A stretch of DNA of 64,000 nt from Polytrichum commune (lineage: Eukaryota > Streptophyta > Polytrichopsida > Polytrichales > Polytrichaceae), in the NCBI GenBank assembly GCA_950295325.1, contig OX485804.1:67990033-68054032 (forward strand), given 5' to 3'. The notes below the pieces were generated by a model that had not been told where the DNA came from, searched no databases, and saw only the letters and a list, made by a program, of their open reading frames with translations. Position numbers and translations under genes: made by a program. The stretch's first letter is position 1, and the number at the start of each line of letters is the position of its first letter. Shown here piece after piece: positions 12,096 to 63,300 of this stretch.

Positions 12096-15000
12096 ATGGG
12101 AAGGGGAGCTTCGCCGCTCCGTGCTATTGTGCGAAACTCTCCCAAGAAGCCAGCGCAGGAGAATATGGACGTGGGTTTCTTGAGCGTTGGAGAGTTGACG
12201 CCGACGAGGAAGCCACTGAGCTCTATTGCGGAATGTGGACGGAACCCTCTGTCGTCGTCGGACGAAAACTTGCCGGACGCTTCGACACCGAAAGGGAAAC
12301 TGGATGCTACAACTCCTAAAGCGAAGAAGAAGAGCGGCGGCGGGGGCCAGTGTCTGTTTCCTTTGGCAGAGAATGTAGATCGCTCTGAGGGGGCCAGTGG
12401 AACCCCAGATAAGCAGCATGGAAATGGGAAGAACCACAAGAAGTCGCAGAGCCGCCAGCCTTCCCCAATGAAAACGCAGGCTGTGGTTAATAAAACTCTG
12501 CAGGAGAATCCTCCCACGGAGACTTGTACTGGTGCGGAAATTGCTGGTGACATGTCTCAATCAGCAGCAGCAGCAGGAGGCCAAATTGTTAAGGGGCCGC
12601 AATTTGAGCAGCATGGACACACTCCCCGTTCAAATAGGCACGAACGCGGGTCAAAGTTAAGCAATGAGGCAGAAGTAGTGTCATCATCCCGGCCTAATTC
12701 GAGCAGCAGCTTGCAACCCTCCGCTACACCTGCCAAGAGCGTGACCCGTACTCTTAAATACGGAGCAGCTGGAGGTCCTATTGCGGCAGGTTTGTCAACC
12801 TCTCGTGCCATCGTGCCTCTTGCAACTAGTGGACGAAATATGCAGCCTGGAACCAGTGAGCAGCACTTCGAGCTCGAGGAGGATCACGAATTTTGGCATG
12901 ACCATAATGTCCAGGTCCGTTCTTGACGTAGTAGCTCTTTCCATTACTATTTGTGTCCTTGAAAGTTTTTACACAAGCAAATAGTGTCCTAAGTTCAAGT
13001 CTGGAATGCAATTATCCTTGTTTATCCCAATGCGTTGGTCTGCGTCTTATGACTGGAGGAATTTCCTATTGTTCAAGTTTTGGATTGTGTACTAAATTTC
13101 CCCATTTATTAAGACAGGCATCTTGTCTGCATTTTCTTTAAGTGCCGATGTCACTTCATCAAAAGACTCCATGATTACCCAATGCGGATACATGCCTACC
13201 CTATATTTCATGCTTCATTCGCATACCTGAATTCAATTTAGTTTTCAATGCAATTACCATTGTCTCTCGTATTGTGTTGGTCTACCTATGACGACGCAGC
13301 AGTTCCCTCCTCAAATTTTGGGTTGTCTCCCTGTTAGACATCCATTTCCTTTAAATCCTGATGTCATTTCCTCGACAGTCTCCATAATTACCCAATGCAG
13401 ATAGATGCCCTGCCGATATTTCATTCGTTCGTTGTAACTAAGCATTTCAATACACTGTAGTTTCAATGCCAGTAAGAAAGCACAGTTTGTAGCTCTCTGA
13501 AAGGTTGATGTGGTTGCGCTCTCTCTATATGGCTCACGATCTGGTGTCAGGTTACTTCACTGTACACTGAATTGTTTCTGGACTGCTTCGCTCCTCTGTG
13601 TACCGTTGTATGCCAATTTATGCAATGGTTGTGTGCACAGGTTCTAATTCGAACAAGGCCCATGAGCAGCACGGAGGTGGCCTCTCAGGGATTCAGCAGA
13701 TGCTTGAAGCAAGAAAGTCCACATACAATCACCTGGGTTGGACCACCAGAATCTCGCTTCACTTTTGACCACGTGGCGGGTGAAATTGTGACACAGGTTT
13801 GACTTCAGAACTAATTTGGATATTGAACTAACTGCAGAGTCGCTTACTCGTCAAATTGAAACTGTCTCTATAGACTTTTACCTGATGCCATACTGACGAT
13901 TCGGAATGGATGCCATTGATTGTCTTGGTGGATTCCTCACATCAGCTTTCCTGAAATTGCAGGAAAAGCTGTTCAAAGTGGCAGGATTGCCAATGGTGGA
14001 AAACTGCATGGCAGGGTATAACAGCTGCATGTTTGCATACGGACAGGTTATTTCTTGCACCTGGAGCTCTTGCTGTCATCGAACTACTTAACAGATAATG
14101 GGTATCTTGGGTAATCTCCGGCATTTGTGCTTTGTTCCTTCTTGCGCCTCTAAGCAATCATGCACTAACAAATTCTTCGACACTGCAACAGACTGGTAGT
14201 GGTAAAACCCACACAATGCTCGGAGACATCGATCACCTTGGCGATAAACCTAGCGATAACCGAGGAATGACTCCACGGGTGTTCGAGTACCTATTTTCAA
14301 GAATTCACCTGGTATACATAATTTCATGCTCGTTTCTGTGAGTGAACCTTGATCGATATATGAGTAACACAATTTGTCAAAAAAGATTATTTGTCGCAAA
14401 GTGTCGACTGGTTCTGAGTTAAGAAATCTTGGTTCTGCAGGAAGAAGAACAGCGAAGCAATGAGAATTTGAAATTCTTGACGAAATGCTCCTTCCTGGAA
14501 ATCTACAATGAGCAAATTACTGATTTGCTGGAGCCATCCTCAACTAATTTGCAGGTAATCCACATGAAAGTAGAATTGAATTTGGCAAAACTTAGTAAAG
14601 TTGCATCATTCTGGAGAAGGAAAGTGAATTTTGTTGGTGGTTTAACCATTTTCTGGGCGCTTGCAAACTCTCTGGCAGATGCGAGAGGATGCACGAAAGG
14701 GAGTCTACGTGGAAGGATTAACGGAGATCGAAGTTCACAGTGTGCAAGATGTGATCCAGTTGCTACTCCAGGTGTGTTTGTGCATCCTCTACCTGAGATA
14801 CAGACATTGAGTATTCTAGTCGCATAGTGGTTCGATAAATCAAAAATTCTTATTATAGCTTACGTGCTATTATAGGGTTCGGCCAACAGGAAAGTGGCAG
14901 CCACAAATATGAATAGAGAGTCCAGCCGTTCGCACAGCGTGTTCACATGTATTATCGAAAGCAAGTGGGAAAGTGAATCGATGACTAACATTCGATTTGG

Positions 15001-21000: not shown

Positions 21001-24000
21001 AAGGAGCTAGATGCTCTCCAGATTGAATTACAGGGGCATCAAAACAAATTGAAGCAAGAGGAGGAGAAGACCCTTGAGGCACTCCAGTACTCGCAGCACT
21101 TGCTCAGAGAGAAAGATGAGGAAATTGCCTTGCTCAAGGAGGAAGGTACTCGGATGTCATGTATGAGTGTCAAGAAAGAGGAGGCCGAAGTGGTTGAATT
21201 GAAGAAAGAGGTCGAATTGTTGCGAGAGGATCTACAAAGGAAGGAGACGAGCTTGCGACAAGCAGATACACAGCTCCTTGAAATCCCAAAACAGAAGGAT
21301 GAGCAAATAACAGTCCTGAAGGAAGAAATTGAGATACTGATATCCATGAATGCCAAGATTGACATAGAGCTAGCTGAGTGTAAGGAGGAGTTACAGATGC
21401 TTCAAGTTGAGAGAGAGTCGCATGACTTGATTTTACAAGAAGCTGAGAGCCGTGTTGTTCAGGCAGAGTCTGCATCTGAGAAATTAAAGGAAGAGTTGGA
21501 AGCAGTCAAACTGGAGATTGAGGATCTCAAATCTGTAGAAGAGAAGGCATCCGAACTGCAATCTGCCTCAGTGATGAAGGATGAGCAGATCAAAGAGCTT
21601 GAGGGAGAGCTCGAAAGACTATCCACCAGAAGTGCAGAGCATGAGAAAGAGCTAGCTGAATGTAAAGGCCAATTGCAAGCACTGCTATCACAGGTTGAGG
21701 AAAAGGATTCTCGTCTTAAGGAAGCAGAGAAGAGTGTCAATCAGGCAGTTGCAGCCTCAGAGAAACTAACAGGAGAAAAGGAAGCTCTTGAGCTGGAAGT
21801 TGAGAATCTGATACTTGCAGCAAACGACACCTCTGTTAGGCTCTCAGAGGCTGAGAAAGTGCGGTCTGCTCTGCAAGAGAAGATCACTGATATTGAAATG
21901 CGTATGGCACAACTGGAGGACAGAGAGCAATCCCTGATCATGGAGATTGACATGCTTTCTTCTGTGAACAACAGTGGTGTCAACGATGTGCACGACTTGG
22001 AGCAGGAGGTTCTGAAGCTTAAGGAAGAAAGGGATAGGTTAACTTTAGAGGTATCGAGTATGGACATGCAAGGGGCAATAAGTGACAGATTACAGTTCAT
22101 TCAGACGTTGTGTATCGACACCGATGACCGGATAACCTCAATGCAGTCAGAAATTGATGAGCTCACCTCTGCAAGGGACGCTTTAGAAGCAGAAGTGCAG
22201 GCAATCGAAGCTCATGCTTCACGCCTGTTGCTGGAGCTTGCTGAGAAGGAGCAAATTATTGAACTCTCCCGAAACCATCAAAACATGGATGCAAGCAGCT
22301 GCATACAAGCAGATGCCAGTAAGGAAGATCTCATGGCTGCACAAACCAAGCTCCATGCCGCTGAAGAAAGTATCGTTACTATGGCTCGTACTATTGAGGC
22401 ATTGAACAAGACGAAAGCTGAGAAGGAGGAAATGTTTGCTTCATTGCAGGAGCGATTGGAGAAGACGAAGGAAAATCGCAATCAAGCACAAGACAAGCTC
22501 AATGCACTCACAGTGGCTATGCATGAATTCTCTGTCCTAGAGGAAAGCTGGAGGAATGAAAAGGAGAACATTCTTTCTGAGATTGAGGATGCTAAGTCTC
22601 AATTGACAATGAAAGAAGCAGAATGTTTGGCCTTGCAGGAGAAGAACAGAATGCTTGAGGTTCGTCTTCAAGAATTAGAAGTCGAAGAGGCAGCTACAGC
22701 GGCTGAGCTTGCTGCTTTGGAAAACGATCCAAAGGAAGTGAAGGCCCTGCTAAACGATGACCAAGTGGAACTTGCGAAGACTCAGGCGGCCTTGGCTGGT
22801 GCAGAAGAGAGAGTTAAGCTGTTGGTGGATGCCAATGCCACAATGAGGGATGATTGGGAAGGTGAACGAACTAGGCTGAATTCGGAGAAAGAATTGCTGC
22901 AATTAGAAATTTCTCGGCTGGAGAATTCTACATCGACTCCATTGATGGAGAATAGGGCTGTGGGTGTTGATGCTGAAAACAGCAATGATCAGTTCATTGA
23001 TGAGCTGAAGAGGGAAATTAAGAGAACAAGGGCTGATTGTGAGAATCTAAGAATCAAGATTCGCGAAAGAGATGATACAATCTTGTCAGTGCGATTGGAA
23101 CTGGAGAAAGCTGCAGTCGCACTGAAGGAGACGAATATTGAGATTGAGAAGTATATCAGGGAGAAGGAGGATGCTCTAAGGCGAATTGCAGCATTGGATG
23201 TTGAGCTGGAGGACGCTCGCAAGGAAATCATGAGACAGGAAGAGCAGGTATTCAAACTAGAGATTGAATTGGAGGACTCTCAGAAGGAGCTCATGAGGCG
23301 GGAAGAAGAGGTGTACAAATTTGAGGTTGAATTGGACAGCGTCGTAATGAGAGTGACAGCTTCGGAATCCCAATGGAAATCGAAAATGGACGAGCTGGAA
23401 ATGGAGAGGGAAGAAGCTAAGCTAGAGGCTTACACGATGGCCGAAAAATTCGAGACTTTGAAGAAAGAAATGGAGGATGCACAAGCCGCTGCAGAGGAAG
23501 AATCTCCTGCACGTAAGCAATCCATGCAGGAATTGGAGGACTCCGTCAATCTTTCTCTTGAGAGTATAGCTGCCATCGCCTCGGCCAAGGAAGAAGTTGA
23601 CATCACAAAAGACCATTGTGAGAAAGAGATGGAGACTCTTGCTGTGGACATGCAGTCTCTGAGAGCAGATATTAGCAACAGCTTCTTTGAGTTTCCCGTT
23701 GTCGAGATTCAACAAGATGTAAAATCCATCATTGAGGGTCATCGGGTCGAAATCGCTACCCTGACTGGAAAGGTCAAAAGCCTAGAAGGTCTTCTAGCAG
23801 ATAGTGCCGAGAAAGTTTCTTCCTTGGAAGCTGATCTTGAAGAAGCTCAGAGAGCCCGTGCATCTCTTGAGGCAGCTGAAAAGAAGATCAGTCTTTTGGA
23901 TGCGGAGAACTCTAGGAAGGAGCTTGAGATGTCTGAGGCTGCTGTAACTGAACTGTTAGCGGCTGTATCGGAGAGAGACACTTCTCTATCCGTTTTAAGG

Positions 24001-27000
24001 GAAAGACTTGAGCAGACACAAAGTCTTCTGGAACAGGCCGAAGCTCGATTGGAGGCCAGCCAGTTGGAAGTTGAATCTGCTAAGGTTGCACTCAATGAGA
24101 CTGAGCAGCTGCGCAGTCACGTCCAGTCTCTCCAAAATAAAGTTGCGAAGAAAGAGGAATTTATTAAGGGTCTGGAATATGATATCAATCTGCTGGAGGA
24201 GACGGGTGCTGCTGAGACAGAACAGAAGCAAGAAATTATCAACCAGCTGCAGAAAGAGGTGGATGCGAAGAAGGATGAGCTAGAAGGGTTGAAAAACCAG
24301 ATGGTCATTCAGGAGACCCACCTTCGAGAGATGAAGGAGGAGCTTGTCTCGTCTAAGGCAATAGCTGCCCGAGCAGCTGAAGAAAGCTTAGACATGCGTT
24401 CGAAGTTGGAATCTCGAGTAGCTCTACTGGAAGCAAAGGTGGAGGAAAATGACTGCACTGTGAGTTCGCTGAGCAAAGAGTTACAGGCAACTCAAACACT
24501 TTTGCAGGAGAGCGAAGCGGATGCTGCTAAAGCGCGCGAGGTAACATACCTACTTCGCATGTGCGCTCTCTCTCTTTCTTTGGTCTCTAATCCGTTTTCA
24601 ATGTTCATAATAAACCTTTGAGTTAAAACCTTCAAATCCTTCTGCGCTTCTGATGATAGTTTGTATTGTGATCACTAATCTCTCCATTCCATTTCGGAGC
24701 AGTCTGCAGAAATTTTCAAGACCTATGCTACAAGCCGGTCTCAGGAAGTGATCTTGAGAGAGGAAGAGTTGAAGATTCAGGTAAGGCGTACCTCTAATTA
24801 TTTATACCAACTCTTGCGTTGACTACTACCAAGCTCTGAACTTCATTTTGTGATTGCATGTGTGGTTGCTCACCTCTATCGAATTTAACGACAGGTGGTG
24901 ACACTGGAGAAGAAGGTGGCAGAGCAGCTTCAGATGAGAGAGGATGCAGAGAAGGAACTCAGGCAGTTGAGACAGCAGAAGTTCACTTCACAGGCTGTAG
25001 AATCTCGAGAAGCCCAAGCTGCCGCATTATCCTTGGAAAGGTTAGACAAAAAGTTGTGACACTCATTGACACTCATTGACAATCACACTTGACACTCATT
25101 GGTGATATTTTCATGTTTCCTCACCTGTTATACGCAAATGAAGTGCCACTCACTATGCTTATTCTCTCTGGTAATATACAGGAAAGTGAAGGACATGGAT
25201 GGCCAGCTATCACTTATGCACCAAAAGCTTGAAGTCACAAAGGCTCAGTGTGACAAGAAGGAGGCAGAATGTGTTGAGAAGGACTCACAGGTACTAAGTT
25301 GCCCAGAGCGATGCTATTTTCCTTTTGTTCAGGTTCAGGGTGATTCGTTTGGTGTACCCTATATAACAGAATTCGTACTCCACTCCCTCCCTTATCAGAG
25401 TCATGAAGTGTCTTTAAGTTCCTGGATAATTGCCATGCAGATCAATGTCCTCAAGACACAAATTAGCCAAGTGCCATTTTCAGCCGGAAAGCATGGTCTT
25501 GAAAATCACCAGAAGATAAAGGGGCTTGAAGTATTTGTAGAGCAAATGAATACTAGCAAATCTCTAGCCAGAACAGCCAGTATGGGCCACCATCTAGATT
25601 ACAGCAACGCCGACTTCGCTGCCAAGCGCCGAATCGAAGAACTTGAAGCTCTTGCAGAGAAGCGATTGAGAGAGGTGAGAATCATGCCCTTTTCTTGCAT
25701 GTTTTTTTCGCTGGTAAACTGTACACTTCCAGCCTACAGCATCAATGATGACACAATCGCTAAGTATTGGTGTGGATGCTATTGGATGCAGGTTTACGCG
25801 TTGAATATGAAACTTGCGGAGACTGAAAGTATCATGCACGATGTAATCCGAGAAATTGCTGGAGAGAAGTTGGATATTGAAAATTACAAGGTAGGGCTTT
25901 CGATTTACTTCCTGCCGGGTTTCAAAGTATTTCGGATGATTTCAAACGAATGACGGTCTGACCTGGATTTTATGCAATGCAGGCCATGATTAGCGGGCTA
26001 CAACCGAAAGACATTGTTGCCACTGTTCGACGTCAAAGCCTTGAGAGCCAGGAGAAGGTATTGATAGGTTCTGTGTGAGAAACAATTACAAACAATCACG
26101 ATGTTACATTTTTCTGGGTTAAACAACACATCTAGAACTCTGCCTGATACCATGGATCATTGTCTTTGCAGGGCCAAATGCAAGAACAAGAAGTGCACAA
26201 ATTGAGAAATCAACTGAACGAACTCATTGAAGAGAGAGCAAGGTAAATCATTTGCACTGCCTTCCACAGCTGCCAACTGTTCCTATATTTATCGACCATT
26301 GTACTTTTGTTATAATATGTTACCGCGATTTCTCTTGCTCATTTCCTGATTTCCTTAAAATTCCTTCGCAACAGCTGGCTGGAGGAAATTCAGAGAAGGC
26401 AGGCCGAGGTGGTGGCTTTCCGTGTTACTGCTGAGAAGCTGCGACACCAGGATGAAATTCTTACAGCTGAGAATGAGAAGTTGAAGGTGAATGATAGTTC
26501 TTCATTTCGTCATTTCCACGAATCTTGGGAAGATGCGTGCATCCGCATCCGTGTCTCATATTTACAGTAGCTGATGCTTTCGATGATGATTGCAGACACA
26601 CACCACAGGGCAACAGAAAAGGATAGGAGAGCTGGAACAAGAGATCAAAAAACTCTCTGGCCAACAAAATCTACAGCAACGAATCCACCACCATGCCAAA
26701 ATCAAGGTATTTTGAATCTTGAGGCCCTACATCTCAAAACGGATCAAATTGCCTAGCTTTGTGTTGACGAGTCCTCTAAATCGAGAAATTCCAGCTTTCG
26801 TGGTGTTAACTTTCTTGGGACACTATTGCAGGATGAAAATAATACTTTGAGACTCCAGGTGGAGGAGCTTGGTAACAAGCTCAGACGCTCGGACATGATG
26901 TTCGCTAGGGTTAAAGATGAGCTTGAACGATATAGAATAGGTGCAGGCAAAACCCCCTTCCCCAACATCGATGAAGAACAGCGATTAAAGATTAAGCTAC

Positions 27001-32700: not shown

Positions 32701-35022
32701 GACTTTAACACCTGGCAAAGTAATAAAATTTATAGTGGAGCTACTGACGTTTCTAGTTGCTACAAATGCATAATCTACCAATTATCGTACCTTGGAGAGA
32801 AGCTTTGCTAAGTACTCTGAACCCATTCGACTGACAAGATGTCCATAATCTGGACTACTCTGAAAATACTCCCGCTCTTTTCGCCTTGCAGCCACAATAT
32901 CAACATTTCTGTTAATATCGGCTTGTGATCTGTTTACCACTCCAACCCAGGGGTTGACCAAGCGGTATGCTCTTCCTTCAAGGACCTGCCAATAGAGGTG
33001 CATAATTCAGCAGAAGAAACCAGTTTTTAACTTTCAAGTACAAAGTTCCCTTAAACCCATTTGGTGCCCAGACAATTTTGCGTGTTCCAAATCGGCTTGA
33101 TATAGCACCACATGTCTCATCTTCGAGCATTCTTCATATAAAAACTCAGGAGTATGCTTGAAAGAAACTCACATCAACAGCGTTTGTTCCCTTATCCATG
33201 AGATCAAGTTTTGTCAAGACTCCAAATGTCCTCTCGCCTGCCAGTACGACCAGTCAAAGTTACTAAGTTTGAAAAGAGAAACACTTCATGCATTTCCTTA
33301 AATTTTTGTAGTCAAGGTCACGAATTAATACCTCCAGGGTCAACCTCACGAGCAAGCTTGATTGCATCCGAAGTTGCAATATCCTGGTTCGCTGGTGAAA
33401 TCGCCAAAATGAGGGAATTTGGCTGTATTGAACAACATTTTGAAGTTAAGCTAGAAAGTGATAGGAAGAGGAAACATATCATGACATGCAACTCGATAAT
33501 ACTCGAGTACAAATATGATGCAGAGACAGGAATCCAAGCAATGCCTGATAAGTGCTTTTGACTCAATAGAGTAATGACATGAGAAAACAGGGGCTGGACG
33601 AACCTTTTCCACATATGACCTAACCATGTCATCAATATCTTTGACGATACTGTCTGGTTGTCCCTCTGGATATTCCATAAGCACGAGCTTATTAGTAACA
33701 ATGTTGAATTTCATATCAATGCAATCAATCCTAGATGTGTAAACATCTCAAGGCAATGAAATCCATAATGGAGTAAAGAAACACAAGAATGATAATTACA
33801 TTGAAGAAACGTACCTACGGCAACCTTCGTCAACCCAGGTAGATCAATGAGAGTCAAATTCACCACTGCAGTTACAGCACATAGAATTATTATTTCCTGA
33901 AATGATGCAAGGTGATACATTCCAAATGCAGAACTAGATAAAACAGCTCCTGAGAAGGTCTCCCAACACAACTTCAATTTCTTAGATGGAATCGTACCAT
34001 GAGGAGAGTAGATGCTAAGATGGATTGGTACAGGAGATATTTGCTTGCTGCGACCTGTGACTCTGTCCGTCTCCTCTTGGATCTCCCTTCGCACGTATTC
34101 TGGAACAGGATCAATACTCCCCATTATAAGGAGAACATGCCTTGAATGCTCCAAAGAGTTCTAATATCAACTCACTCATATAACATTGCAACGTGGTCTA
34201 CATATGTGTCGTTGCGTCTACAGAAAGTAGGATTATTCGCAAAGTTAGCCATACTCTGCTCTTCGACAGATCACTAAAGAGATACATAGCACTCCAACTC
34301 CGAAACTTCCGTCTATTGTACATTGAGCACCCAAAAACTAGACTTACCAAAGTCATAGAACTTCTTCTTCGGGAGATGAAGAAATTCTCCATATTCCTTC
34401 CCTTCCTCTGTCTTATGTAATTGAAGTACAAGAGGTCGTCGTGTCACAATTCCTGAAGCATTAACAGGGAAAAGTTAGAATAGGTTGCCTCTATATAAAT
34501 GATCTGCCACTGTAGTTCTAACATTTACAATAAGTCCAACCATATTTTTGCCGAAACGCGCGAATACCTGAACCGCGAGGTAGGAAATCTCTGCCTACGA
34601 TGCTCTCCAGCACTGAGGACTTGCCAGAACTCTGTTTCAAACGAGACGAGACAATCAGAAGTCAGACCTCCACGAGAAGTAGACATGCAGGCTCTCATGA
34701 CCAAATAAGTACACATGGAAGTGTGACAGAAGTACAAAAAGAGATAACTGATTGGAAAACAAATCCATGAGTCCTGCTACAAACGTCATTTATTGCCAAG
34801 AAAGATTCTAGAAACGCAGAGACGTATACACGAGTTTCACAGATAATATTAAGTTTTGCAATTTGAAAGTGCGACGGCTGCACAGTTGCGTACCTGGCCT
34901 CCTACAACGACGACCGAAGGTAATGATTCCCAAAGAGTGGGAAGAGCGTTATCACCTCCATAATCTCCTAAAGCCGTGCATATCCTTTGTATTCTATTCA
35001 CCAGTCCTATTAGGCTCTCCAT
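29799..35022 (-). CDS. DRP1: Dynamin-related protein 1 (DRP1 family)
   Basis: A large GTPase of the plant DRP1 class, which acts in cell-plate membrane remodelling and clathrin-mediated endocytosis. Sixteen exons assemble without a break into 609 aa; Arabidopsis DRP1A is about 610. Exons, 5' to 3' on the minus strand: 34894-35022, 34568-34631, 34348-34452, 33998-34099, 33815-33865, 33604-33665, 33332-33422, 33173-33237, 32791-32985, 31976-32095, 31710-31780, 31266-31491, 31089-31139, 30601-30829, 30315-30454, 29799-29927. Seen: start [21 protein letters not shown]1 GGQSSGKSS (41-49); G2 TRRP (68-71); G3 DLPG (141-144); G4 TKLD (210-213); NRS (241-243); then the middle domain and a C-terminal GED ending near EIDSVAWAK. 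There is no PH or proline-rich domain, as expected for DRP1. Every exon is in phase and all GTPase motifs are intact. One intron (donor at 30600-30599) begins GC. The paralogue letter cannot be assigned. Confidence 0.95.
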
Positions 35023-48923: not shown

Positions 48924-51900
48924 ATGGGATCAACATCTGAAAGTCCACGAGAGGATCTTACAATACCACTCCATGCCAATGTTTCGTCCGTGGAATTAAT
49001 AGATACAAGAACAGTCCTCACACGGAGGAGTTCTAGTGCTGGAGCACCCACAAATAATCATTCACCCTTTTGGTCCGCGGAAGACATTGAAGACAAACAC
49101 AGTAAATTCTAATCTCCTAAAAGCTTCCAACGTAGATAAGTAGTTGTAAAATAGTGCAAATGTAATATGTTGGAAAATAAAGGTTACGTGCGCACACATT
49201 TTGAGATTTGGTTTTGTTTTTACCGAAATGTGCATCCTCTGAAAGTTGTGCTCAATGAACATTTCTTCTTGCAATTATCAAGATGATGTTCCTTCATAAC
49301 TTCTCTTAACTCAATTCATGTTATTTTTCCTCCTATGGATGACTTCCAGCAAGGCGATCAAACGTTACTGCATCAGAATGTAACATGAGCACAGGGACGC
49401 CACGGTCACCACATTCCCAAAGCGGTGATAAAGACAAGGTGATGATTGATGATTCCAAGTTTTCAGAATATTCTTTGGAAAGCTCAACTATCTACTGATG
49501 GTTACTTGTTTGTTAAGTAATCATAAGGGAATGTAATTTCATATTCTAAAAGCACTGTTGGCATTCAACCCTCACACGAGTTTCATCTATGTTGCTCTCA
49601 ATTAACCCTGAAGTAGACTTCCTTGGCAATACATGTAGGTTAAGGTTTTTGTTCGAATGCGACCATTTTCCGAGCATGAGAAAGTATGCCCTCTACGACA
49701 GGTAATCCTATCGACGTGATGGAAATTGGAAATATGAAAATGGATATCTTTTTGAAGCCGGGTGGTCTTGCTCAATGCTTTGTGATTGTTGTTGTCGTTG
49801 GTGCTCATGTTCAGAAAGTATTTCCAGCAAAGAAAGGTAGCAAACCATATTCTAGACTCCATTTAACCATGCAAATTACTCTTCAGGTAATTTGCTTGAT
49901 CGGTGACAAGATCGTGGTGCGTGAGGTGGATCACCAACGCCACAAGATTGGCCCTACATCTAAAGATTGGCGTCGCACTGAATCTTTGGAGTTCAAAGTA
50001 GACTACGTTCAGGTATGTATCCACACCACTTTCATCCACTTTGAAAAGAGAATGGAAATGTTTTGAACAAGAGCAAAGAGATTCAAACAATATTTCTACT
50101 GCACTTTTGTTGGTAGTAATGTGTTCTCCCAATCCATGCTTGGTCAGCCCCCTTGGGATTCTTACACCTTATGTTGTAGTTCTTCGTCGAGATGAATCAC
50201 TTAAATAAATTGCGTGTAGGATGACAGCTATTTGCAGGTTCAGAGCTCGGATGCAAAGGAAGAGTCTCAACGCCGCATGTATGATACGCTTGGAGTCCCT
50301 TGTGTCCAAAATGCCCTAGACGGCTTGAATACAACGGTGCAGTTCCACGCCCCCCCTCATAGGCTACTCCTCCCTCTTTAGTAATTGAGTTGACCTTTGA
50401 GTGCAACAATATTATCAAATCAACATAGTGTGTTGTTCAATGTTGGGAAACATATATATTGTTCTGAATATGCACCTTGTCTTTCGTCAAACCAGATCAT
50501 AGCTTATGGTCAGACAGGCTCAGGGAAGACATACACAATGATGGGGGATGATACAACCTCAGGAAGAGGCTTGGTATGTGATGTATTTCATGTATTACCT
50601 TTATTTTCAAGAGCCTAAGCTTAGCAAATAGTCATTATATCGTCCTAAAACATTGTGCACACATTGACCCCAAAAAACGAACACTTTAGATAGTTGTCAA
50701 ATGGATCCAAATTTTGCGTTGTCAAAAGACAATCAATACAGAAAAAAAATTATGAATATATAGTAATGATTGTCCACTCATACCAATCAATGGCATGGTA
50801 CTCTATTTTTTGCCAGATGCCGAGGCTGGGTTGCCAGTTGATGCATCGCGTCAACAACGAGTGTGCGAAAGGTTCACACATCACTGTTCAGGTAATGCTG
50901 GATCCTATACTTTGGTGTGTACTCAAACTCTCTTTGGCACAAATCAAATACTGATGTAAGAAATTGATTTAATCAGGTGAGTTATTTTGAAATTTATCAA
51001 GAAAAGATTCGTGATCTGCTATCGTTTGAGAAATCGACTGATCCTCCTCCACGAGCAACACGACCCCGAACACCTACCTTTACAGTCAGCGAAGTGGGAA
51101 GTCCGGTGGAGGGTGAGCGTGCCGATGAAGATCGATCGTCACAATCCGAGTATGTTCTTGACGAATGTAATCATCCCGCAATTCAAGCAGACGACTCCGC
51201 ATTAGAGGTTGCCAGTGCAGAGAGTGACCCTGGCTTTACTGTGATTGATGAGCTCGGCAACGCCATGGAGGGCCGTCCCCAACAACCAAAATTTGAGTCA
51301 ACTGCTAGGCTCAAAGCAAAGAGAAAATCTAGTATGTCAACGACCTTGAAGGATGCAACACCGCAAAAACGAAGTAACCAATTTTCATCTCTTGTGTTTG
51401 GAGATTCTGGCGGGGTGAAGAAAGAGACGTTCCTCAGGGTTCGAGAGCACCCTGTGACGGGCCCTTATGTGGAAGGTTTAATTTGGAAAGAGGTGAGAGA
51501 ATGGGCGGACATGGAGAGGTTGTTTAAACAAGGTGCAGCAAATCGCACAACCTATGCTACAGACATGAATGAGCACTCCAGCCGCAGCCATGCCCTTTGC
51601 ACCATCAAAGTTACACGGGTACAACGTGTTTTTATTTTTTTCCTTTGATTCTTTAGCCCCAGCAACTCATTGTGATGTGGTTAGTTTTAAAGTGGGCCTA
51701 TCAGTACATTTAGATCTTTCATATGCTCACAAAGGAAATCGGTGTTCCGAAAGAGTTCTATACACAATTCTCAAGAGCCTAATTAACAGAATTGACACTT
51801 GAGAAACATTTGAGTCTCATTTGATGGTGCTTAGTGAAGGTGTACGCCCATTCAAGCAATATCTTGATGGAAGCATACCACTAACTCTCCAAGACGATAG

Positions 51901-54900
51901 AAAACTCTACTAATATGGTGTTGTGTTTGTTCTCTTGCTCATCCATTGCTTTGAATATAGCACAAAACACACTTTACGAAATCATATGTTTCGATTAGCC
52001 TCATTACAAAAGTTTTATACTTGTTGGATTCAACATGACGTTTAGTGCCTAAATGCATCTACTTGATGTCCCCAAACAACTAGGTCATTTTGAGTAAACG
52101 TTAGACAGACTCAAACTGAAGAGAAGATCATCATTGAACAAATGGATCATGTATAGAATATCTACGAATTAATAGCGATTACATGTATGGTACATTTGAG
52201 CAGGAGAACACTATGTGTTGAATTTTTGACAAAAGGTATTCGGTTTTGAATAACAGAGTCACGGGGCAAATATTCCTGGTTTATGCTCCAGTTTTATCCA
52301 TCTCGTTGATCTTGCAGGTTATTCCTTGATCTTCTCTACTGTATTCAACATAAAGAACCCGAGATTATATTGATGAGAATGGTCTGACTTACTTCCCTTC
52401 ACCTCTCCTCTCCAATGTCACGTAACATTAGTTGTTCTTTAAATGGGATATCCTCTTTGAAAATTCTTATTTTAAGACTTCAAAATGAGTTATCACACAT
52501 CACGTACAGTAGTTCAAAAAAACAGAAAATCTATAGTATGATATTCACCATTATGTATCTATGGATCGCTTAGATGAGTAAAGTTTTCTCACTACAGTTA
52601 TCTTGAATGCCCCTTGAATCATAATAGGCAGTGAAAGAGGAGGCACAGATTTGGCAGCATCACGCGCTGATGAATCTCGCTGCATAAATAAATCTTTGTC
52701 TATGTTGAACGAGGTAAATTGCATGTTCTTACCTCCAAGCCAATTCTCATGTCACCGATTTGTTGCATCGTAATAATTGATCTATTTGTGAGAGAAGTTA
52801 TTGTATTGACTGATGAAATTGCAGTGTTGAATTAACCGAGAGATACAAGCCGAATGCAATTGACATTTCTCTTGTGATTGTAGGTGATCCTAAGCCTTTC
52901 CAAGAATACATTCGTGTCGTATAGAAACTCAGTCCTGACATGGCTACTTCGAGATTCATTTGGCGGCAACAATAAAACATATATGGTTGCAAATATATCT
53001 CCAACAGAGCAGGTTCAAAATGAAATCCCCAAAATATATTAAAAGATACCATACTAAATTTCTCAAATATCCATATTCATTTATTGCATGTTTACTTTAA
53101 AACATGTTGTAGAGATCCTCATATGTTATGATGGATTTTACTAGCTTCAATGAGCACCGTCCACTTTTTGAGCCCGTTGAAATAAGGTAGATTGAGCCCA
53201 AGGTTCTAAATTCCGTTGGATATTGTATGTGTGGCAGGATTTGCGAGAGAGCGTGAATACACTTCGTTATGCTACGAAGGCAAATAAAATACAAAGCAAC
53301 CCACATGTTGTTGAGGCAGATCCACGAAATAGTCTCATCTACAAGCTGAAAGAAGAAATCTGCACTTTGCGCTATTTGTTAGCTTCTTTCTCGACCGACA
53401 AAAATAATGGAACCCCTGCTCCATCCGTTCATACCATTCCACAAATCGCAGAGGTGCAATCTTTGTTGCTCTATTTTCTTTGTAAACTTCCAAATCTTTG
53501 TAGTCAGGCAATATGTGGATGAAAACTATGTTTTCCAGGAATAATCCCCTCTTTCCACAAGATAATTTCAGGCATATAGGACTATAACTACAACCTTTAC
53601 TCTCTCGAAATCAACGCAAAACAGAGTTACTTCTGAACTCACATATTTTATGACCAGAATATCCTATGCAGGCATGCCCACAGGTCATAGACAACTTAAA
53701 CAGAAGGGAGAACGATGATATTGAATTGTGTTGCCTTGAGCCAAGTACAATAACAAGTGTTCCCAGGGTGTCACCCGTAACAACACCTCCAAATACTCCA
53801 CAAAGCCCGGTCCATGAATTGATGTGCGCAAAAGAAGGAACCATCACAAAATCCACTTCAGTCTTCAAGGCGACGATGGCAAGTTATGCCATCAACAACA
53901 TGAATCAGAGGACTTTAGAGCTTACCAACAGATTAACAGCTTTCTCACAGCATCGGCCAAGTCATCTAAGCCTCCAAGCAACTCCATCCCAAGGAAGTGT
54001 CAATCGAGTTGTTTCTTCCATTACCACATATACAAAGAGTGCACATGCCTCAGAAATGCCTGCCATTTTCTTTAACATACGTCCAAATGCTCAACCAAGT
54101 AGTGCAACACAAGAAGACACTTTTGAAGATGCTGAAGAAGAACTTGACAAGGTAACGGATGCAGGATGTCAAGTGGATTGCACTATGTGTGGATTGACCC
54201 AGACTGTTGAGCAAGGGAACAATACACAAGACTGTGGATTGGCTTCTCTTATGATGGGGTACATAGATTTTCAAAGTCCATATGAAACGGCTGAGGTGGA
54301 ACAACAAAGGCAATCAAATCATCCTGTAACTGAAGCGGAGGATGATAGTAGAATGGTTATTATTGAAGGAGGGCAATCTACTGGTTTGAGCCAATTGGAA
54401 GATGATAAACATGACAAATCCACGCCTCAAATACTGGCAACTCAAGTTGAGGAGCAACAAACCCCTAATGTTGGTGCTCCAATAATAACTAGTCCTAAAC
54501 AATCAACAATGTATATTAAGTGTGGCCAGACAACTTCACGTAAGAGAAGTGTTGCAGATATGATGCATCAGACGAAAGGATTTCGATGCATGGATGATTC
54601 CCGTGGCATCATAGAGCAAGAGTTCCTGAGAAATGTCAAGGCCACTGAGGTGGGACACCGACCTATTCCTGACATTCCCGATGCTAGCAACCAAATCAAA
54701 TGGGATCAACTGGCAAATATGGGTTCTGGACATCATAGTACAGTCAAGGAATCTGAAGATATGGATATTAAGAGAGAAAGTGATGCAACTCAGTTGGGAA
54801 ACCCGATGGTATGGATGGACTTTGGCACATCTTTTGCTGCACATAAGGTTCCAAATAATAATTTTGAGGCAGAAAGTGGAGGGCAATTGATGACTATGAA

Positions 54901-57877
54901 AAGGTGCGTACCAACTAATGTCTCCCCTCACGTGCACCTAAATGACTGCGGAGCACATGTTGAAGGTCATCGAATCCCAGGGATTGAGGCTGGGGTCTCT
55001 AATGTGGGCCACCAAATAGAATTGGAGGAGTGTGGAGGAATCGGTGCAGGTCATCAGAGTGACTTGAGAGAATGCGGGGTGATTGGCATTTGGGATGAAA
55101 CAGTCCCCAAGGATTTTGAAAATACAAAAGTGGGTCAAGTTATGGTGGAAGATTGTAGGCGAGAGCAACCAAATTCTAGATTTGTAGATGGGGGGCAACA
55201 AATTACACACAAAGGCCATGGAGTTGTTGATGTGGAGAATCAAACTTACCTCAAAGATTGCGGGGCACGTGATATTGGGCTCCAGACCTTTTGGAATAGC
55301 TTTGGGGCGTCCGATGCTGGTCACCAAGTTACTTTGAAAAAATGTGGAGCCATCGATGTCGGACACCAAGTGACCTTAAAGGATTGTGGAGCACTTGATG
55401 TAGGACAACAAATTACCTTGAAAACCTGTGGAGCTATAGATGTGGGGTATCAGATTAGCTTGAAAGATTGCGGGGCACTTGACATTGGCCATCAAACAAC
55501 CTTGAAGGAATGCGGAGCCAATGATGTTGGACATCAAACTACACTTAAGGATTGTGGAGCGGCAGACGTAGGACACCAGACAATTATAAAAGAATTTGGA
55601 GCTGCAGATTTTGGGCAACAGATTGTTTGGAACCAATTTGCATCCTCTGATGTTGGACATCAAATTCCAGCGAAATGTTTTGGCGTTGTCGATGAGGGGC
55701 ACCAAACTACCCTCAAAGATTGTGGGGCACGTGATATTGGGCACCAGAGTTCTTGGAATGACTTTGGGGCCTCTAATGCTAATCACCAAGTAACTTTAAA
55801 GAAGTGCGGAGCCATTGATGTAGGCCACCAAGTTAGTCTGAAAGCATGCGGGGTTGTTGACGTTGGATATCAAATTAATTTGAAATACCGTGGGGCAATC
55901 GATGTTGGGCACCAAACAAGTCTTAAAGATTGCAGAGCAAGAGATGTTGGCCAACAGATCACGTTACAAGATTGTGGAGCAGTCGATGTGGGACATCAGA
56001 CAACTTTGAAGGAATGTGGAGCTACAGACGTCGGACATCAAACAACCCTTCATGATTGTGGAGCTTCTGATGTAGGTCAACAAACCGATGTCGATGGGTT
56101 TGGAGCAATCGATTTTGGGCAACAAATTGTGTGGAACGAGTTTGCAGGCGGGGATGTTGGATGCCAAATAACTCTGCAAGATTGTGGGGTTATTGGTGCG
56201 ACACATCATGATACGTTAAAAGATTGTGGGAGGAATGATATTGGGCACCAAACCCTTTGGATAGATTTTGGGTCCTCTGATGCAAGTCACCAGGTGAGCT
56301 TGAAGGACTATGGAGCCATTGATGCTGGCAATCATGCAACATGGGAAAAATACGGAGTAATCGATGCAGGACATCAGACTAACTTGAAAGGTTGCGAAGC
56401 TACTGATGTTGGATACCAAATTACTTTGAAAGATTGTGAAGTCGTTGATGTTGGACACCAGACCGTAATGAAAGAGAGTGGACGTACAGACTTAAGGCAT
56501 CAGACCACACATAATGATTGTGGAGTTGCCGATGTGGGACAACAAACCATCTCCGGTAAATTTAGGTCAACTGATGTTGGGCACCACATTGTATTGAATC
56601 ATTGTGCATCTGCAGATGTTGGCAACCAAGTTTCATTCAAAGATTGTGAAGGTATTGATGTTAGCCATCAGATAGTATGGAATGAGTTTGGGTCCACCGA
56701 TGTGGAAAATCAAACCGTTCTGGAAGAGTTTGGTACTATTGATGTAGCCAATCGAGCTACCTTGAAAGACTGTGGAGCATCGGATGTAGGGTACCAAACT
56801 ATATGGAATGAGTTCTGGTCCTCTGATATTGGGCAACAGATCACTTGGCAAGATTGTGGAGCCATGCATGTAGGGCATCAGACCTCTTTGAAAGATTGTG
56901 GTGCATCTGATGTCGGACATCAGATCGTCTGGAATGAAGTTGGCTCATATAACATGGGCCATCAAGTCATCTTGAGAGATTGTGGAGCAATGGACAAAGG
57001 CCACCAAACCATTTGGAATGAGCTCGGGACCTCGGATGTTGGGAATCAAGTTTCCTTGCAAGTTCTCGGAGACCTCAACACCGAAAATCAGTCGACCTCA
57101 ACAGACCACTATGCTAATGACGTCGGGAACCAAATCACGTGGAACGAGCTTGGGGTTTTGGATGTTGGGCTTCAAATTACATTGCGAGAATGTGGCGCCA
57201 TCGACGAGTGTCAACAAATAACTTCAGAAGATTTTCAAACAACTACAGAGTCTAGACATGGGATTGTTTGGAATGATTCCAAAAGCCTAGATGCTTGTAA
57301 CCAGATTACATTGAACGAAAACGCATGCCTTGACACAAGACACCGAATGAATTTAGAAGATTATAGAGCAACTGATGCGGGACATCGGGTCTGTTGGTCA
57401 CAATTTGGGTCTTCTAATGTTGGACACCAAAGGTACATGAGAGAATGTGGAGTGATTGATGTTGGCCATCAAAGCACTCTTCATGGTTGCCACGCAACTG
57501 AGGTGGGTATTCAAAGTAGTGTAGGGGACTGTTGGACAAAGGAAATTCAACAACAACGTTTCTGGCACACAACGTGGTCTCTTGATGTTGGGTATCAAAC
57601 TACTTGGAATGATTTTGGAGTCGTTGAAACTAGCATTCAAATCGTACCAAAAGAATATGAAGAAATTGATATGGCAATCCAATATGATCAAATAGGCACA
57701 GATGAGTGCAGCCAATCATCAAACTACCATCATCCTTTCGATGCAAGGCACCAACCTCCTTGCAGTGAAACTGGTTCCAACGATACAATTTGTGAACCAA
57801 CAGACTCGGATAACCAAATCACGTGGAGGGACAACAAGATTGCTGAGGCAGGTAATCAATGTACTTTGAGGGATTGA
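48924..57877 (+). CDS. Kinesin-3-like motor protein with 14-residue repeat tail
   Basis: A microtubule motor. Thirteen exons join in phase to 2,021 aa if the frame ends at 57877: 48924-49101, 49350-49438, 49639-49701, 49887-50012, 50220-50336, 50496-50573, 50817-50891, 50977-51618, 52257-52317, 52628-52713, 52884-53012, 53238-53453, 53672-57877. Seen: a Ser-rich leader (1-89); motor from [10 protein letters not shown] (90-99), P-loop GQTGSGKT (196-203), SSRSH (443-447), DLAGSE (474-479). [16 protein letters not shown] and [18 protein letters not shown] are close to kinesin-3 signatures as I recall them. About 132 low-complexity residues (262-393) are inserted after the IRDLLS strand. No FHA domain follows the motor; the tail is instead a long repeat array. 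The start codon is uncertain. A donor at 57852 would bypass the stop and extend the protein to about 2,370 aa through 58916-59988. Confidence 0.85.
54645..57877 (+). repeat. 42-bp / 14-residue coding tandem array (~75 units)
   Basis: Translated units follow [DE]-[CF]-G-A-x-D-[VI]-G-[HQY]-Q-[TIV]-[TS]-[LW]-[KN]. About 47 well-kept units run from 55256 to 57240, with decayed units on both sides. A higher-order period is visible: the unit DCGARDIG...QTFWN at 55256 recurs as [14 protein letters not shown] at 55718 (462 bp, 11 units) and as [14 protein letters not shown] at 56222 (504 bp, 12 units). A WN-containing variant unit recurs within each block. The frame is unbroken throughout. Confidence 0.9.
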
Positions 57878-58915
57878 AAGAATGTCATTGTTAGACCAAT
57901 AACAAAGCCGAGTTGTTGTGGGCAACGAAAGTTTTCCACCAAATCATGTGGCACAGCAGTGGGTCTTATCATGTGGGCCCTCCAATCAATTTATAGGATT
58001 GTGCAGTGTCGAATGTCAGCAATCAAACGGTGCGGGAAGAGTTTGGATACCTTGATGGATTGAGCGGGACTTGCACGTTAAAAGATTTCCCAGGGATCAG
58101 TGCACGTCAATAATACCCATATTGAGAGTACTGGGCAAGATAAAATCAGGCCACCAAGTGTCATCGTAAAACATTGAAGGGTTGTGTACCGGACCTGGTG
58201 GATGAGTGTATCTATTGAGTGGCATGGTGCAAACCGTCAAACCTCTGATAGCATCATACTAAAAAGAGAATGATTGTCATGAGCACCCAACAGGTCCCAA
58301 CACAGGATTGAATGTGCAAGGTGGACTTGATAAGGATCCACTAACTCTCAAGTCAATTTTATAAAAAAAAGTCCCACTTAGGTTTGATTCATGTTTAATA
58401 ACTGAAGCAGAGACACAAAGTGGACTTGCAGGATGGGACACAACCTGGAGGAATGTGGATACGGAAACAAGTATCCATGAGACATGTCTCTCAACACAAC
58501 AAAGGATCTCAAGTATGGCAAACAACAGCATGCTCCAAAAATGCTCAAGGTTCGGGACGGAGCAACAGCTTCCTGTCCTGAGATCATGTAAGTCACCACT
58601 GTGACCACAATGCTGTAACAAAGAGATAAGAGGCCACAGGATTATATTTTATCATAGAAGTAAGCACGACAGGAATGGAATTTAGACACCCATAGAGATT
58701 TATCCACCAGGAGTTTCTGATGGTTAACCTGGAGTACCATGGGAACTTGGAGCTATAGGTGCATGAAGGTAGATGTATCCAAACAAATCTGGAGACTTTT
58801 CTCCAAAGTAACAAGCTGCCACATCATAAAATTTGTAATTTACGCTTTTTGAACTGTTTTTCCCAGAGAGCCTTCAAAACAGCATTCTTCTTGCCACTCA
58901 CTGTAAATGATGCAG
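57852..58915 (+). other. Candidate phase-1 intron carrying decayed repeats
   Basis: The donor reads GAGGCAG|GTAATC and the acceptor GATGCAG|GTCAGG. Splicing joins G and GT into a glycine codon and keeps frame into a long open exon. Both sites fall in the D/E-A-G-x-Q part of the repeat. The interior still encodes broken repeat units (for example DCAVSNVSNQTVREEFG near 57997), shifted in frame and interrupted by stops, so it looks like former coding sequence. Confidence 0.55.
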
Positions 58916-59988
58916 GTCAGGTTCAACACATTAATTTCCAAAAGGGAGACTGGAACAATCTTGATGGCCAAATTTACTCAGAAGAACAGACTATGCTTGA
59001 TAGGGGTGTTCAAACAAATACCTCAATGAATGGAGTCCAGGCGATTGATGGGTGCACTTGCTTTGATTATAAGAATGAGGAATCGGCTTCACACTCCAAG
59101 TGCAGCAATTCTCCAAGGATCGGACTGACCCTCTGCATTCTTTGGCTATATTTACAGGGTATTAACAAGATGACAAGATACAGGTCTCAAAAGAAAGTTC
59201 ACAAAACAGTACAAACTGCAGGAGAAACAAGTCCAGACTTCTCATATGACCACCAACTTCAATTATCAAAACCTAACAACTGCGCCCTTGGCAACTTTGG
59301 GAGCCAAGAAAGCAAAAACATATCTCCCATCTCTAGCCTGACACTAACCATCTCCTCTGTGTGGATCCTCTTCAAGCTATCTAGTGCTGCCAGGGAAACG
59401 GAGGTGACAAGAGGACAAGTGACTAGAATTGAGTTTGTTCCCATAAATCACCAAAGGGGTCTTGCAACTGCAGCTCATAGCCAAAGAGTTTTCATATGCT
59501 CCAGGCCTGAGCCAACTACAAATCAGCTGCAGTATACAGGAGTAGATTCGATAACATTCAGGAGCTCAACACCATTTCTGATACAACTATGTGGATGCCG
59601 TTCACTTTTGAAAGCCACCATTGTTGCAGGTTCAGGCTATGGAGCAGTAAGGAAACGAGCTTGCAAGGTTGTCTGCCACAAACCTGGAGAATGGATCATC
59701 CATTTCCTAAGGGCTGGAGTGAACCAATTAAGCTCTGGAAGGACGGTGCACCTCCAAGTGGAGCCATGCTTAGAGGAACAAGCAGAGTTCATATACATGC
59801 CGGCTGAGCGTTGTACAGGAAGAAACGGATTTGTCGTGGCACGTGTAAAGGCTGAGGCAAGAGGTAACCTCAATGGGCAACCAATGTTGAAACCCATGGA
59901 GCTTACTACAGGAGATAAGCTTGTGCTTTACAGTTCGGACTGGTCTACAACTTGCACCATGTATTTTTTCAATCTTATCACTTCATAA
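58916..59988 (+). CDS. Probable terminal exon of the kinesin-3-like gene (unrecognised domain)
   Basis: The frame is open for 356 codons to a TAA at 59986-59988. It begins GQVQHINFQKGDWNN and contains RGVQTN and GVQAIDG, echoing the D-x-G-x-Q pattern of the upstream array. The C-terminal 170 or so residues (from about VTRIEFVPINHQRG to MYFFNLITS) are rich in predicted strand-forming residues with many cysteines, and I do not recognise them. It is either the last exon of the kinesin gene through the intron 57852-58915 or a separate gene; the in-phase join favours the former. A hydrophobic stretch near 59120-59158 might be a small in-frame intron. Confidence 0.6.
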
Positions 59989-61080: not shown

Positions 61081-62544
61081 CTGCAATTCCACAGGGCACG
61101 TTCAGAGTTACGTTCAGAGTTGACAACAATGAAATATACTGGAGTGATTTCACTACAAGCACTTCATAATGCAGGACAATGGAAACTAGAGAAAAATATG
61201 ATGCAGGTGTGTACTGAAAACCATTTCCTGGTTACTTCCAGTCAAGTGCTAATATAGAATTCAACCTGTTTTATCTGCAGAATATTGTAAGTTTCTGGTG
61301 TTAAACCATGTTTATCCACACCAAAATTCACAAGAGAATAGGTATGACTCCACCTCACAAGTGGCATAGAAATAAAAATCAATGCTCAGATGCAAAATTT
61401 TATGCTCTAGCCGAGTCTTAAGAGTTTGACAGATCCCAAATGAAGACTGATTCCAAAGACTGTCATGCAAAAAAAGTGAGCTGAAAAACTAGTCATAAGC
61501 AATGCTCTCTCCTGAAAATCAATTGAGGCAACTATCTTGCTATGGCCACTCACAAATACGTTCAGATCTGCAGATAGAAATGTACCTTTGATGGCAGCCA
61601 TGGGAATATTTCATCAAACTCTTCAGTGCTCTTCTTGAGGAGGCTTATCATTCTGTTCTACGAACTAAAGCCCTTGGCCAAGACAAAACGTGTCAACTCT
61701 CCGGTCACCATCTATAACAGCAGACTTTCCAGTCACTGAGCATTACAGAGCCAAACTCCTCTCACAGTTTATCCATTACAAGTAAAGCATGACACAAGAC
61801 TTAAGATGCAAAAAGAACGTGCCTGCAAGATGGCCACCAACAATCTGGCAAGAACTGCATCATTAACATCATTTGATGCAAGGAGAGGGATGTTCATTGC
61901 AGTATAAGCAAAGTCCTGCATGTTCCGATTCCAACTCCAGATTAGACACAACAATAAATGCATCTAGGCCATTTACAAGAGCTGCTGATTGAGAAACCTG
62001 CCTCTATGTATGTACGTGGCTCAAGTGCAAAAACACACTAAAGTGCTCCACATCAACTACAAAATCTAAGAGCATGATAACATTTTTGGAGATTGACACA
62101 GCTTAAGCCAGTACTTTGTCCCTCTCCTTGTCAAGTACAGGCCGTGTCTTCGGACAATCGGCTACTAAATGATTTATCTGCTGATTTGCTTCAGCTTGTC
62201 ATGCCTTGATATCGCCACTGCTTGACGTGCTTGCGGGTTTAAGCCCACGTTAAATTGTGAGATGTAATGTCTTGTACACTACACTAATCTCTCAAATTTG
62301 TAAAATAGTGTGGTGTTCTCTTATGGAGTATACCACATTAAATCAATCAAGATAACTAAACTAGTTACAAAAGTTGGAAATGGTGAATCCCACACTAAAC
62401 AGAAGAAAGGGTGTAGTGCTTTAAGCTGCTCACCAAGACTGCTGCAGCCGATGCTTAACAACTAAATAAAGCGCCATGTTGTGTACGGGCCCCCTAACAC
62501 CGCAATTTGCTGCCATCCAACGCCTGTAATCCACATATCCTCAA
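61081..62544 (-). other. Possible upstream exons of the unidentified gene
   Basis: Several short protein-like segments occur on the minus strand, listed with the 60757-61080 exon, but they are separated by stops and lack a consistent splice chain. Nothing else is recognised in this stretch. Confidence 0.3.
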
Positions 62545-63300
62545 ACATCTTCACAAAAATCTATCACACCAAAACATGACTTTGCGGTTTTCCGCCCCTT
62601 CCAATTCCTATTTGCAGGGTATCTCATCTCTACACATCATCATCAAACGCAACATGTGACGCAAAACTCTCGGTGAAAAAAATGCTCTTGCTTCCTCTTC
62701 TTCTCTCTTCTCACCATCTTCACGAAAATCACTACCGCTTCCTCTTTTTCTCTCCAAATCAGCTTCACAAAGTTCGATCACATCGGAGCATTACTTTGCG
62801 GTTTTCATCCCCTTCCAAATCCTACTTACAAAATCTCTAATGTCCACGGATCATAATATCAAACGCAACATGTAACGCACAACTCTCGATAGAACATAAA
62901 CTACCGTTTCCTCTTCTTCTCTTCACATCATCTTCGCAAAAATCTATCACACTATCGTAGGGTGCCATCTGGTTCGACATAAAATAATTCTTTGCTTGAA
63001 GAAAATTGAAATGTATCATATGCACATTGGTCAAAACGTATTGAATCCTACGTGGAAATTCCCTTTCGGCACTCAAAGTGCTGAACCCCACATTATCTAC
63101 AGTACTTCGCGGTATTCAGCCCTTCCATTTCCTACTTACAATATCAAAAGCAACATATGAGGCAAAACTCTCAACAGAAAAAAAATTCACCTCTTCTTCT
63201 TCTCTTCACATCATCTTCGCAAGAATCTATTGCAGTGCCCTCCGACATTTGCGGTGTTTCGGCCTTCCAAATCCTAGTTGCAATCTCGCTCAGCTCCACG
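62545..63300. repeat. Degenerate tandem repeat (3-4 units, 140-310 bp spacing)
   Basis: Units begin near 62578, 62791, 63103 and 63243 with (A/T)CTTTGCGGT-like sequence. They continue with CCCTTCCA(A/T)(A/T)TCCTA, CAAA(C/A)GCAACATGT, GCA(A/C)AACTCTC, TCTTCTTCTCTTCACATCATCTTCGCAA and end with AATCTAT(C/T). Spacing varies because of internal insertions or deletions. Confidence 0.6.

Follow-up and report, generated by a model that had tools for sequence, protein, structure and literature searches.

A kinesin-3 gene of the moss Polytrichum commune with a 14-residue repeat array and a candidate LC8-type tail

Which kind of kinesin carries a tail built from dozens of copies of one 14-residue unit, and what might such a tail do? 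A locus of the moss Polytrichum commune raises this question. Within the window, by which we mean the whole stretch of 64,000 nucleotides analysed (contig OX485804.1), an earlier note made from the sequence had placed a kinesin-3-like motor fused to such a repeat at 53672-57877. This interval is a single exon, the last of those that join in one continuous frame, of a larger plus-strand gene. We propose the anatomy of a whole moss kinesin-3 gene, in which a linker leads from the motor to an array of about 64 units, followed by two hydrophobic segments and then an FHA-like domain; this is very probably correct, the last join being a splice prediction. The explanation that combines this kinesin-3 anatomy with an LC8-type tail is the best that we can offer as a whole, and we hold it tentatively, at not far short of an even chance.

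Gene model, motor and array

Thirteen exons, from 48924 to 57877, meet at GT-AG borders in 12 of 12 joins and yield a single frame of 2021 aa before the stop (Table 1). The P-loop and DLAGSE can be read straight from the translation of exons 3-12, and Pfam Kinesin matched on two of the motor exon ORFs. A PDB sequence search with the motor gave 156 matches; among the best 60, the top 25 rows are KIF13B, KIF1A, KIF14, 'kinesin-3 motor domain' or KIF1C-related, and KIF3B follows in row 26. KIF13B, KIF14 and KIF1C are members of kinesin-3, and on this comparison the motor groups with that family. These rows bear out the family named in the earlier note; the position given there does not hold, as the motor lies outside 53672-57877. 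The insert in the motor is read from a gap between two PDB-aligned stretches, at query residues 175 and 311, and Pfam Kinesin_assoc matched after the motor with E 0.018 over 32 residues, under its cut-off. The motor is joined in frame to the long repeat tail within this single GT-AG-bordered model, as the earlier reading had it. It is extremely improbable that the motor and the repeat belong to two genes or are neighbours by chance, in view of the frame-keeping joins at GT-AG splice sites and of models from Sphagnum and Calypogeia in which a single protein comprises motor, repeat and FHA-like end.

Table 1 Features of the array kinesin gene, in window positions
Feature	Position	Strand	Basis
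Exon 1, in-frame ATG as inferred start	48924..49101	+	phase-compatible GT donor; start codon without homology support
Motor and neck, exons 3-12	49639..53453	+	one open frame, GT-AG; Pfam Kinesin; Sphagnum/Calypogeia exon matches; PDB
Exons 3-7	49639-49701, 49887-50012, 50220-50336, 50496-50573, 50817-50891	+	
Exons 8-12	50977-51618, 52257-52317, 52628-52713, 52884-53012, 53238-53453	+	
Motor insert of ~135 residues, between RDLL and FLRVREHP	51025..51429 (borders approximate)	+	PDB alignment gap
Exon 13: non-repeat linker, then array	53672..57851	+	frame open to TGA 57875-57877; donor CAG|GTAATC at 57851
Array, ~64 units of 14 residues	54944..57694 (aa 1045-1961, ~2.75 kb)	+	register count; codon test; TRF in part
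Proposed intron	57852..58915 (alternative 3' end 58870)	+	decayed repeat units in another frame
Exon 14 (predicted), ending in the stop; codes for two LC8-like motifs of canonical wording, two hydrophobic segments and the FHA-like domain	58916..59988 (acceptor 58916 or 58871)	+	tblastn with P0001
Motif DRGVQTN, canonical LC8-type wording	58999..59019	+	pattern; Sphagnum VDVSVQTE seemingly at the same place, by eye
Hydrophobic segment PRIGLTLCILWLYLQGI	59113..59163	+	Sphagnum counterpart by eye TSKIASMLCSLLILIML
Motif HKTVQTA, canonical LC8-type wording	59200..59220	+	pattern
Hydrophobic segment ISSLTLTISSVWILFKL	59329..59379	+	counterparts by eye in Sphagnum, Calypogeia, Physcomitrium
Divergent FHA-like domain	59527..59985	+	P0006 match; profile matches on Pfam FHA of kinesin-3s; codon test

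A non-repeat linker fills the first 1.27 kb of the interval 53672-57877, and the array follows it. Counting by register gives 64 units, a few of which are weak matches, with the core Q in 55 and a D four residues earlier in 50; TRF recovered periods of 42 and 84 within part of the array. About 75 copies over more than 3 kb had been claimed: the 14-residue repeat is present, but its extent is nearer to 64 units and 2.75 kb. Its description as unbroken applies to 49 gapless units in register (aa 1121-1806) and not to the whole, because the register breaks near aa 1101-1120 and 1807 and the exon opens with linker. Over these 49 units, synonymous change is saturated (pS 0.753 vs pN 0.350), and the 60 closest unit pairs give pS 0.612 and pN 0.177. 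They hold no in-frame stop, whereas 2000 neutral simulations contained 22.2 on average and none was stop-free, and the other five array frames contain 10 to 48 stops each. Saturated synonymous sites, a lower level of nonsynonymous change and the absence of stops together show that the array is old and that its protein sequence is under constraint, which agrees with the selection on the protein that the earlier note had proposed.

As far as it was checked, the repeat is also no characterised domain, in agreement with that note: Pfam gave three exon matches, all under their cut-offs, and a homology search with the array alone, over limited lengths and a limited candidate set, found five proteins, all of the same gene family. 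Given the limited lengths and candidate sets of the protein searches, they allow no conclusion that an array gene is absent from Marchantia or Physcomitrium. Three other genome loci that match the array (L002-L004) differ by eye in their repeat wording and were set aside.

Elsewhere in the window, a second kinesin gene lies upstream at 14423-24621 (+). Two small ORFs hold pieces of its motor (Pfam Kinesin, one under cut-off), and the two long ORFs behind them, 847 and 1308 aa in length, look coiled-coil-like by eye and have a strong G and A skew. Dynamin-family fragments occupy two minus-strand ORFs at 33318-34160 (-) (Pfam Dynamin_N, one above and one below cut-off), and a 214-bp unit occurs twice at 62542-62944 with 76% matches.

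The end of the gene and its FHA-like domain

The frame of exon 13 stops at TGA 57875-57877. A tblastn search with residues 1901-2302 of the Sphagnum protein P0001 nevertheless matched 58801-59985 (36%, 1.2e-59), and P0001, which carries the same repeat as P. commune, runs on into the C-terminal part matched there. The sequence between, 57852-58870, has 15-18 stops per frame, and the proposed intron contains two degenerate array units, one scoring 12.1 bits (57997-58047) and one 4.8 bits (57937-57978), compared with 3.0 for the best of 48 control stretches. A good donor is found at 57851, and the acceptors, 58871 or 58916 (uncertain which), are in phase; the donor 57849 was rejected, as its join is out of frame. 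An intron that removes the decayed end of the array is probably the simplest reading of these predicted sites.

The competing view is that this TGA is the true end, so that a truncated kinesin would lack the FHA-like domain and 58916-59988 would belong to another transcript. The frame does stop there, and three Sphagnum-like proteins, identical to P0001 at 1572/1673, 1579/1665 and 1507/1579 aligned residues, run uninterrupted from linker through array to C-terminus in apparently plain open frames (prediction method not stated); an intron in P. commune would for this reason be new. Against this view stand the good donor with its in-phase acceptors and the state of the downstream ORF, which is open over 409 codons, has 39% identity with Sphagnum over 309 positions and shows an excess of third-position differences from a P. 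commune paralog, called C4 below (pS 0.81, pN 0.37 over 147 codons of the FHA-like domain). From these three properties the downstream ORF seems to be still translated, and we regard an end at the TGA as very unlikely.

Pfam called no FHA in the window ORFs or in the plant relatives scanned, and the earlier note had stated that no FHA domain follows the motor. The C-terminal region does, however, match the post-motor region of P0006, which we take from its identifier to be Mesostigma, at 28% over 145 residues (3e-12). When a six-row plant profile of this region was compared with 159 proteins, 133 rows in 132 non-member proteins matched at E up to 10 (best 2.9e-5), and 129 of the 133 fall at aa 440-640. 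In the matched proteins checked with Pfam, the profile match overlaps an FHA call over cut-off in five of five; of two further proteins, the first has a weak FHA call that the match overlaps, and the second lacks any FHA call. By hhalign, the FHA-like profile scored 71.8, whereas none of 60 column shuffles exceeded 18.9; with only the four bryophyte rows the score was 43.8 (the shuffle control was made for 71.8 only); a first hhalign against one FHA row was weak (28.6 and 18.3). The 129 hhalign segments were located by the same C-terminal profile, so that the independent part of this comparison is their identity as kinesin pieces, checked with Pfam on seven proteins. Given the profile and hhalign matches to kinesin-3 FHA domains, the statement that no FHA follows fails: on profile comparison, the tail does carry a divergent FHA-like domain, moved from the usual place beside the neck to the C-terminus, some 1,600 residues past the motor. 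At the alignment positions that we take to be the phosphothreonine-binding residues of FHA, the moss rows seem, by eye, to have replacements. An AlphaFold model of the domain from three aligned rows (pLDDT 35) was discarded.

Relatives, paralogs and the history of the array

The nearest rows to this motor and repeat are bryophyte proteins, in accord with the plant origin assumed for the pairing. A protein search placed Sphagnum balticum, Calypogeia fissa and Marchantia on top, with Mesostigma slightly lower among other kinesins (best 120 of 7743 matches). A motor-only search with a 1e-60 threshold gave 39 matches, which include Physcomitrium (two), Ceratodon, Selaginella, Calypogeia and Closterium, and two rows that, by their identifiers, are presumably Ginkgo and Spirogloea. 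The same motor-repeat pairing, which the earlier note had suggested looking for in other plants, occurs as the same gene in Sphagnum and in a looser version in the liverwort Calypogeia. These nearest array-bearing relatives, Sphagnum balticum P0001 and Calypogeia fissa P0002, share with P. commune the order of motor, D-x-G-x-Q repeat, hydrophobic segments and FHA-like end, but one pattern finds 34 cores in Sphagnum and 14 in Calypogeia vs 51 in P. commune, and gaps that are multiples of 14 make up 24/33 and 5/13 vs 44/50.

One motor exon has three matches in the P. commune genome, among them two further family members. The C4 paralog (L016/L017, G000:C4:24938000-24957999) has a short tail, a TQTP motif and an FHA-like end. 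It and Physcomitrium patens P0121 resemble the array kinesin in their FHA-like end and a hydrophobic segment, and differ from it in having a short linker (165 residues in Physcomitrium and ~200 in C4) with one TQTP motif and no array. The C1 paralog (L018, G000:C1:45618000-45627999) is a third land-plant kinesin-3 paralog that groups with Ceratodon M758_11G114200, and no FHA match was found in the 10 kb searched, which reach ~4 kb past its motor. The assembly itself is 408 Mb in 64 contigs, and six contigs of 42-78 Mb would fit about seven chromosomes.

In a 19-row tree, which leaves out Spirogloea, outgroups and some kinesin-3 rows, the land-plant rows form one clade (100/100), within which an A clade (84/84) and a B clade (81/85) separate, both unstarred. 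Within the A clade, Calypogeia with its loose repeat lies outside two moss groups whose four rows unite at 99/96: the array-bearing pair of P. commune and Sphagnum (98/95) and, as its sister by motor, the C4 paralog with Physcomitrium, both without an array (100/100). The array label requires two changes on this tree. The array may have been gained in the common ancestor of mosses and liverworts and lost in the short moss paralog, or there may have been two independent gains. Mesostigma groups with Closterium, Spirogloea and land plants in a 26-row tree (100/99) and, weakly, with animals and fungi in the 19-row tree (79/81). Since both trees consist mostly of kinesin-3 rows, they are no test of other kinesin families.

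What the array may bind, and how it compares with known systems

It is conceivable that the array is a multivalent LC8-type scaffold that dimerises and extends the motor, with LC8 as a putative partner; from the unit sequences we consider this reading tentative, somewhat short of an even chance. The unit core is D-V-G-[H/Q/N/Y]-Q-[T/I/V]. The available text of one source on LC8 recognition gives a polar residue at -4, a residue no smaller than Val at -3, none of the bulky aromatics at -2, Q at 0 and T/V/I at +1, and adds that LC8 prefers T/V/I at -1 and that partners favour P, D or E at +2 (PMC6607443). The array fits the rule at -4, where D is joined by N and E to reach 58/64 units, mostly fits it at -3 (V in 34 and I in 7 of 64), and fits it at -2 (G in 47/64, W in 1/64) and in its Q at 0, which is followed by T/I/V at +1 in 47 of the 51 units with those residues there. 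The preference at -1 does not hold, with H in 32, Q in 10, N in 9, Y in 5, I in 3 and L in 2 of the 64 units, and +2 is mostly T, S, V or I rather than the P/D/E of LC8 partners.

Each unit would then be one extended peptide of the type bound by LC8/DYNLL dimers. An LC8 dimer takes one strand from each of two chains, so that many dimers would zip two tails together in parallel, like the rungs of a ladder. Single sites would be weak, because the residue at -1 is atypical, and avidity along the array could compensate. LC8 loading might dimerise the motor and stiffen a tether of up to ~0.3 micrometre (916 residues x 0.34 nm), and the hydrophobic segments and FHA-like domain, as the presumed cargo end, would be kept far from the microtubule.

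How well do the counts bear this out? Two strict LC8 patterns, written after the sequences were seen and counted against 2000 shuffles, are unenriched in the P. commune tail, with 5 vs 2.35 expected (199/2000) and 2 vs 1.11 (612/2000). They occur 3 (414/2000) and 3 (77/2000) times in the Sphagnum tail, once each in Physcomitrium (228 and 107/2000) and in Closterium (143 and 73/2000), and 0 times in Calypogeia and Mesostigma. A loose pattern suggested by the array itself is the only strongly enriched one (55 vs 8.1). Canonical LC8-like motifs are found in Sphagnum (DVSVQTE), Physcomitrium (DVDTQTP) and Closterium (SVGVQVP), and beyond the P. commune array as DRGVQTN and HKTVQTA. The C4 paralog has NVETQTP, which is collinear with the Physcomitrium motif in a global alignment (chance 689/5000); the best 8-residue likeness between these two short linkers, with 5 identical residues, was equalled in 83/151 shuffles.

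These counts are where a disordered multivalent tether for a non-LC8 partner, such as another protein, the microtubule lattice or a membrane adaptor, gains its appeal, the LC8 likeness then being a shared x-Q-T wording. The strict patterns do not exceed composition, 56/64 units have H/Q/N/Y at -1, and both faces of the peptide are conserved (D, G, Q on one; V, H, T/I, L/W on the other), as in recognition motifs generally. Such a tether would, however, turn the canonical motifs at the array edge and in the short relatives into coincidences, although each of these motifs alone is statistically weak; we think it doubtful, without being negligible. The array might also fold, each unit forming a beta-strand and a turn that stack into a beta-rich rod and stiff spacer. 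Hydrophobic positions alternate (-5, -3, +1, +3), DCGA/EFGS is turn-like, and AlphaFold's top model for 14 units consists entirely of strand (pTM 0.51), with three Foldseek matches at E <= 0.001 to beta-helix proteins. That model has a mean pLDDT of 50.4, the other four have 23-36, and TM is at most 0.19 in the three matches and at most 0.41 in the 50 rows listed, a confidence at which we judge both model and matches uninformative. In a parallel stack, moreover, a D that recurs at one position of each rung is unfavourable, and we consider a folded rod unlikely.

Returning to the LC8-type scaffold, four places in the P. commune genome hold LC8 exon pairs; judged by eye, two of these are canonical and two have diverged. 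One canonical LC8 was compared and is identical to the solved cytoplasmic dynein light chain 1 at 57/62 residues; one diverged copy was compared with the solved LC8 as well. Two LC8-like genes (L005, L006, L009, L012) are unlike the canonical ones at several residues of their second half. The residues at which the diverged paralogs depart from the solved LC8 are, we assume, groove residues, and it is possible that the diverged LC8s have co-evolved with the H/Q/N at -1 of the array. A fuller scenario is that an ancestral single LC8 site in the neck-FHA linker grew into an array of ~60 sites, that the LC8 load sets dimerisation, length and stiffness, and that diverged LC8 paralogs may read H/Q/N at -1, all in a lineage that lost cytoplasmic dynein 1; we consider this rather doubtful as a whole.

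Our results can be set against what has been described for kinesin-3. The P. commune gene has its motor sequence, LRVREHPxxGPYVEGL motif and FHA homology in common with KIF1A, KIF13B, KIF16B/Klp98A and Unc-104. It differs from them in that its FHA-like domain is C-terminal and too divergent for Pfam, in the array between motor and FHA-like domain and in the motor insert; Pfam called neither a PX nor a PH domain, whether in ORFs of the window or in those plant relatives that were scanned. The accessible part of a plant kinesin survey that appeared in 2006, ahead of the bryophyte genomes, finds neither a kinesin-3 in plants nor an FHA in photosynthetic eukaryotes (PMC1434745), and that of another survey could place none of the moss kinesins in family 3 (PMC3472504). 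In the portion available of a further study, kinesins that combine motor and FHA are inferred to be an ancestral eukaryotic type (PMC2867816). A Selaginella relative is already named KIF16B-like in a database. Judging from the P. commune locus and the genes related to it, a kinesin-3 with an FHA-like domain was retained in land plants. In the part of the literature covered, we found no paper on the P. commune array kinesin and no described kinesin with such a tail, as the earlier note had supposed. The family is thus known, its plant branch is little described and, within the literature covered, the array tail is new.

A comparison can likewise be drawn with known multi-site LC8 partners, which form stacked LC8 beads according to the available text of one study (PMC5963919). 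ASCIZ/ATMIN, Nup159, Chica and Bassoon have several x-Q-T motifs per chain, as the array does, and the array differs from them in its ~64 units, strict 14-residue spacing and atypical -1 residue, its sites being putative only. To our knowledge none of these four is a motor, and we know of no LC8 ladder that would approach this one in size. LC8 is retained in plants without dynein, as stated in the accessible part of another source (PMC2239267). Should the array be an LC8 ladder, plant LC8 would have a dynein-free use and the motor would be one tuned by multivalency.
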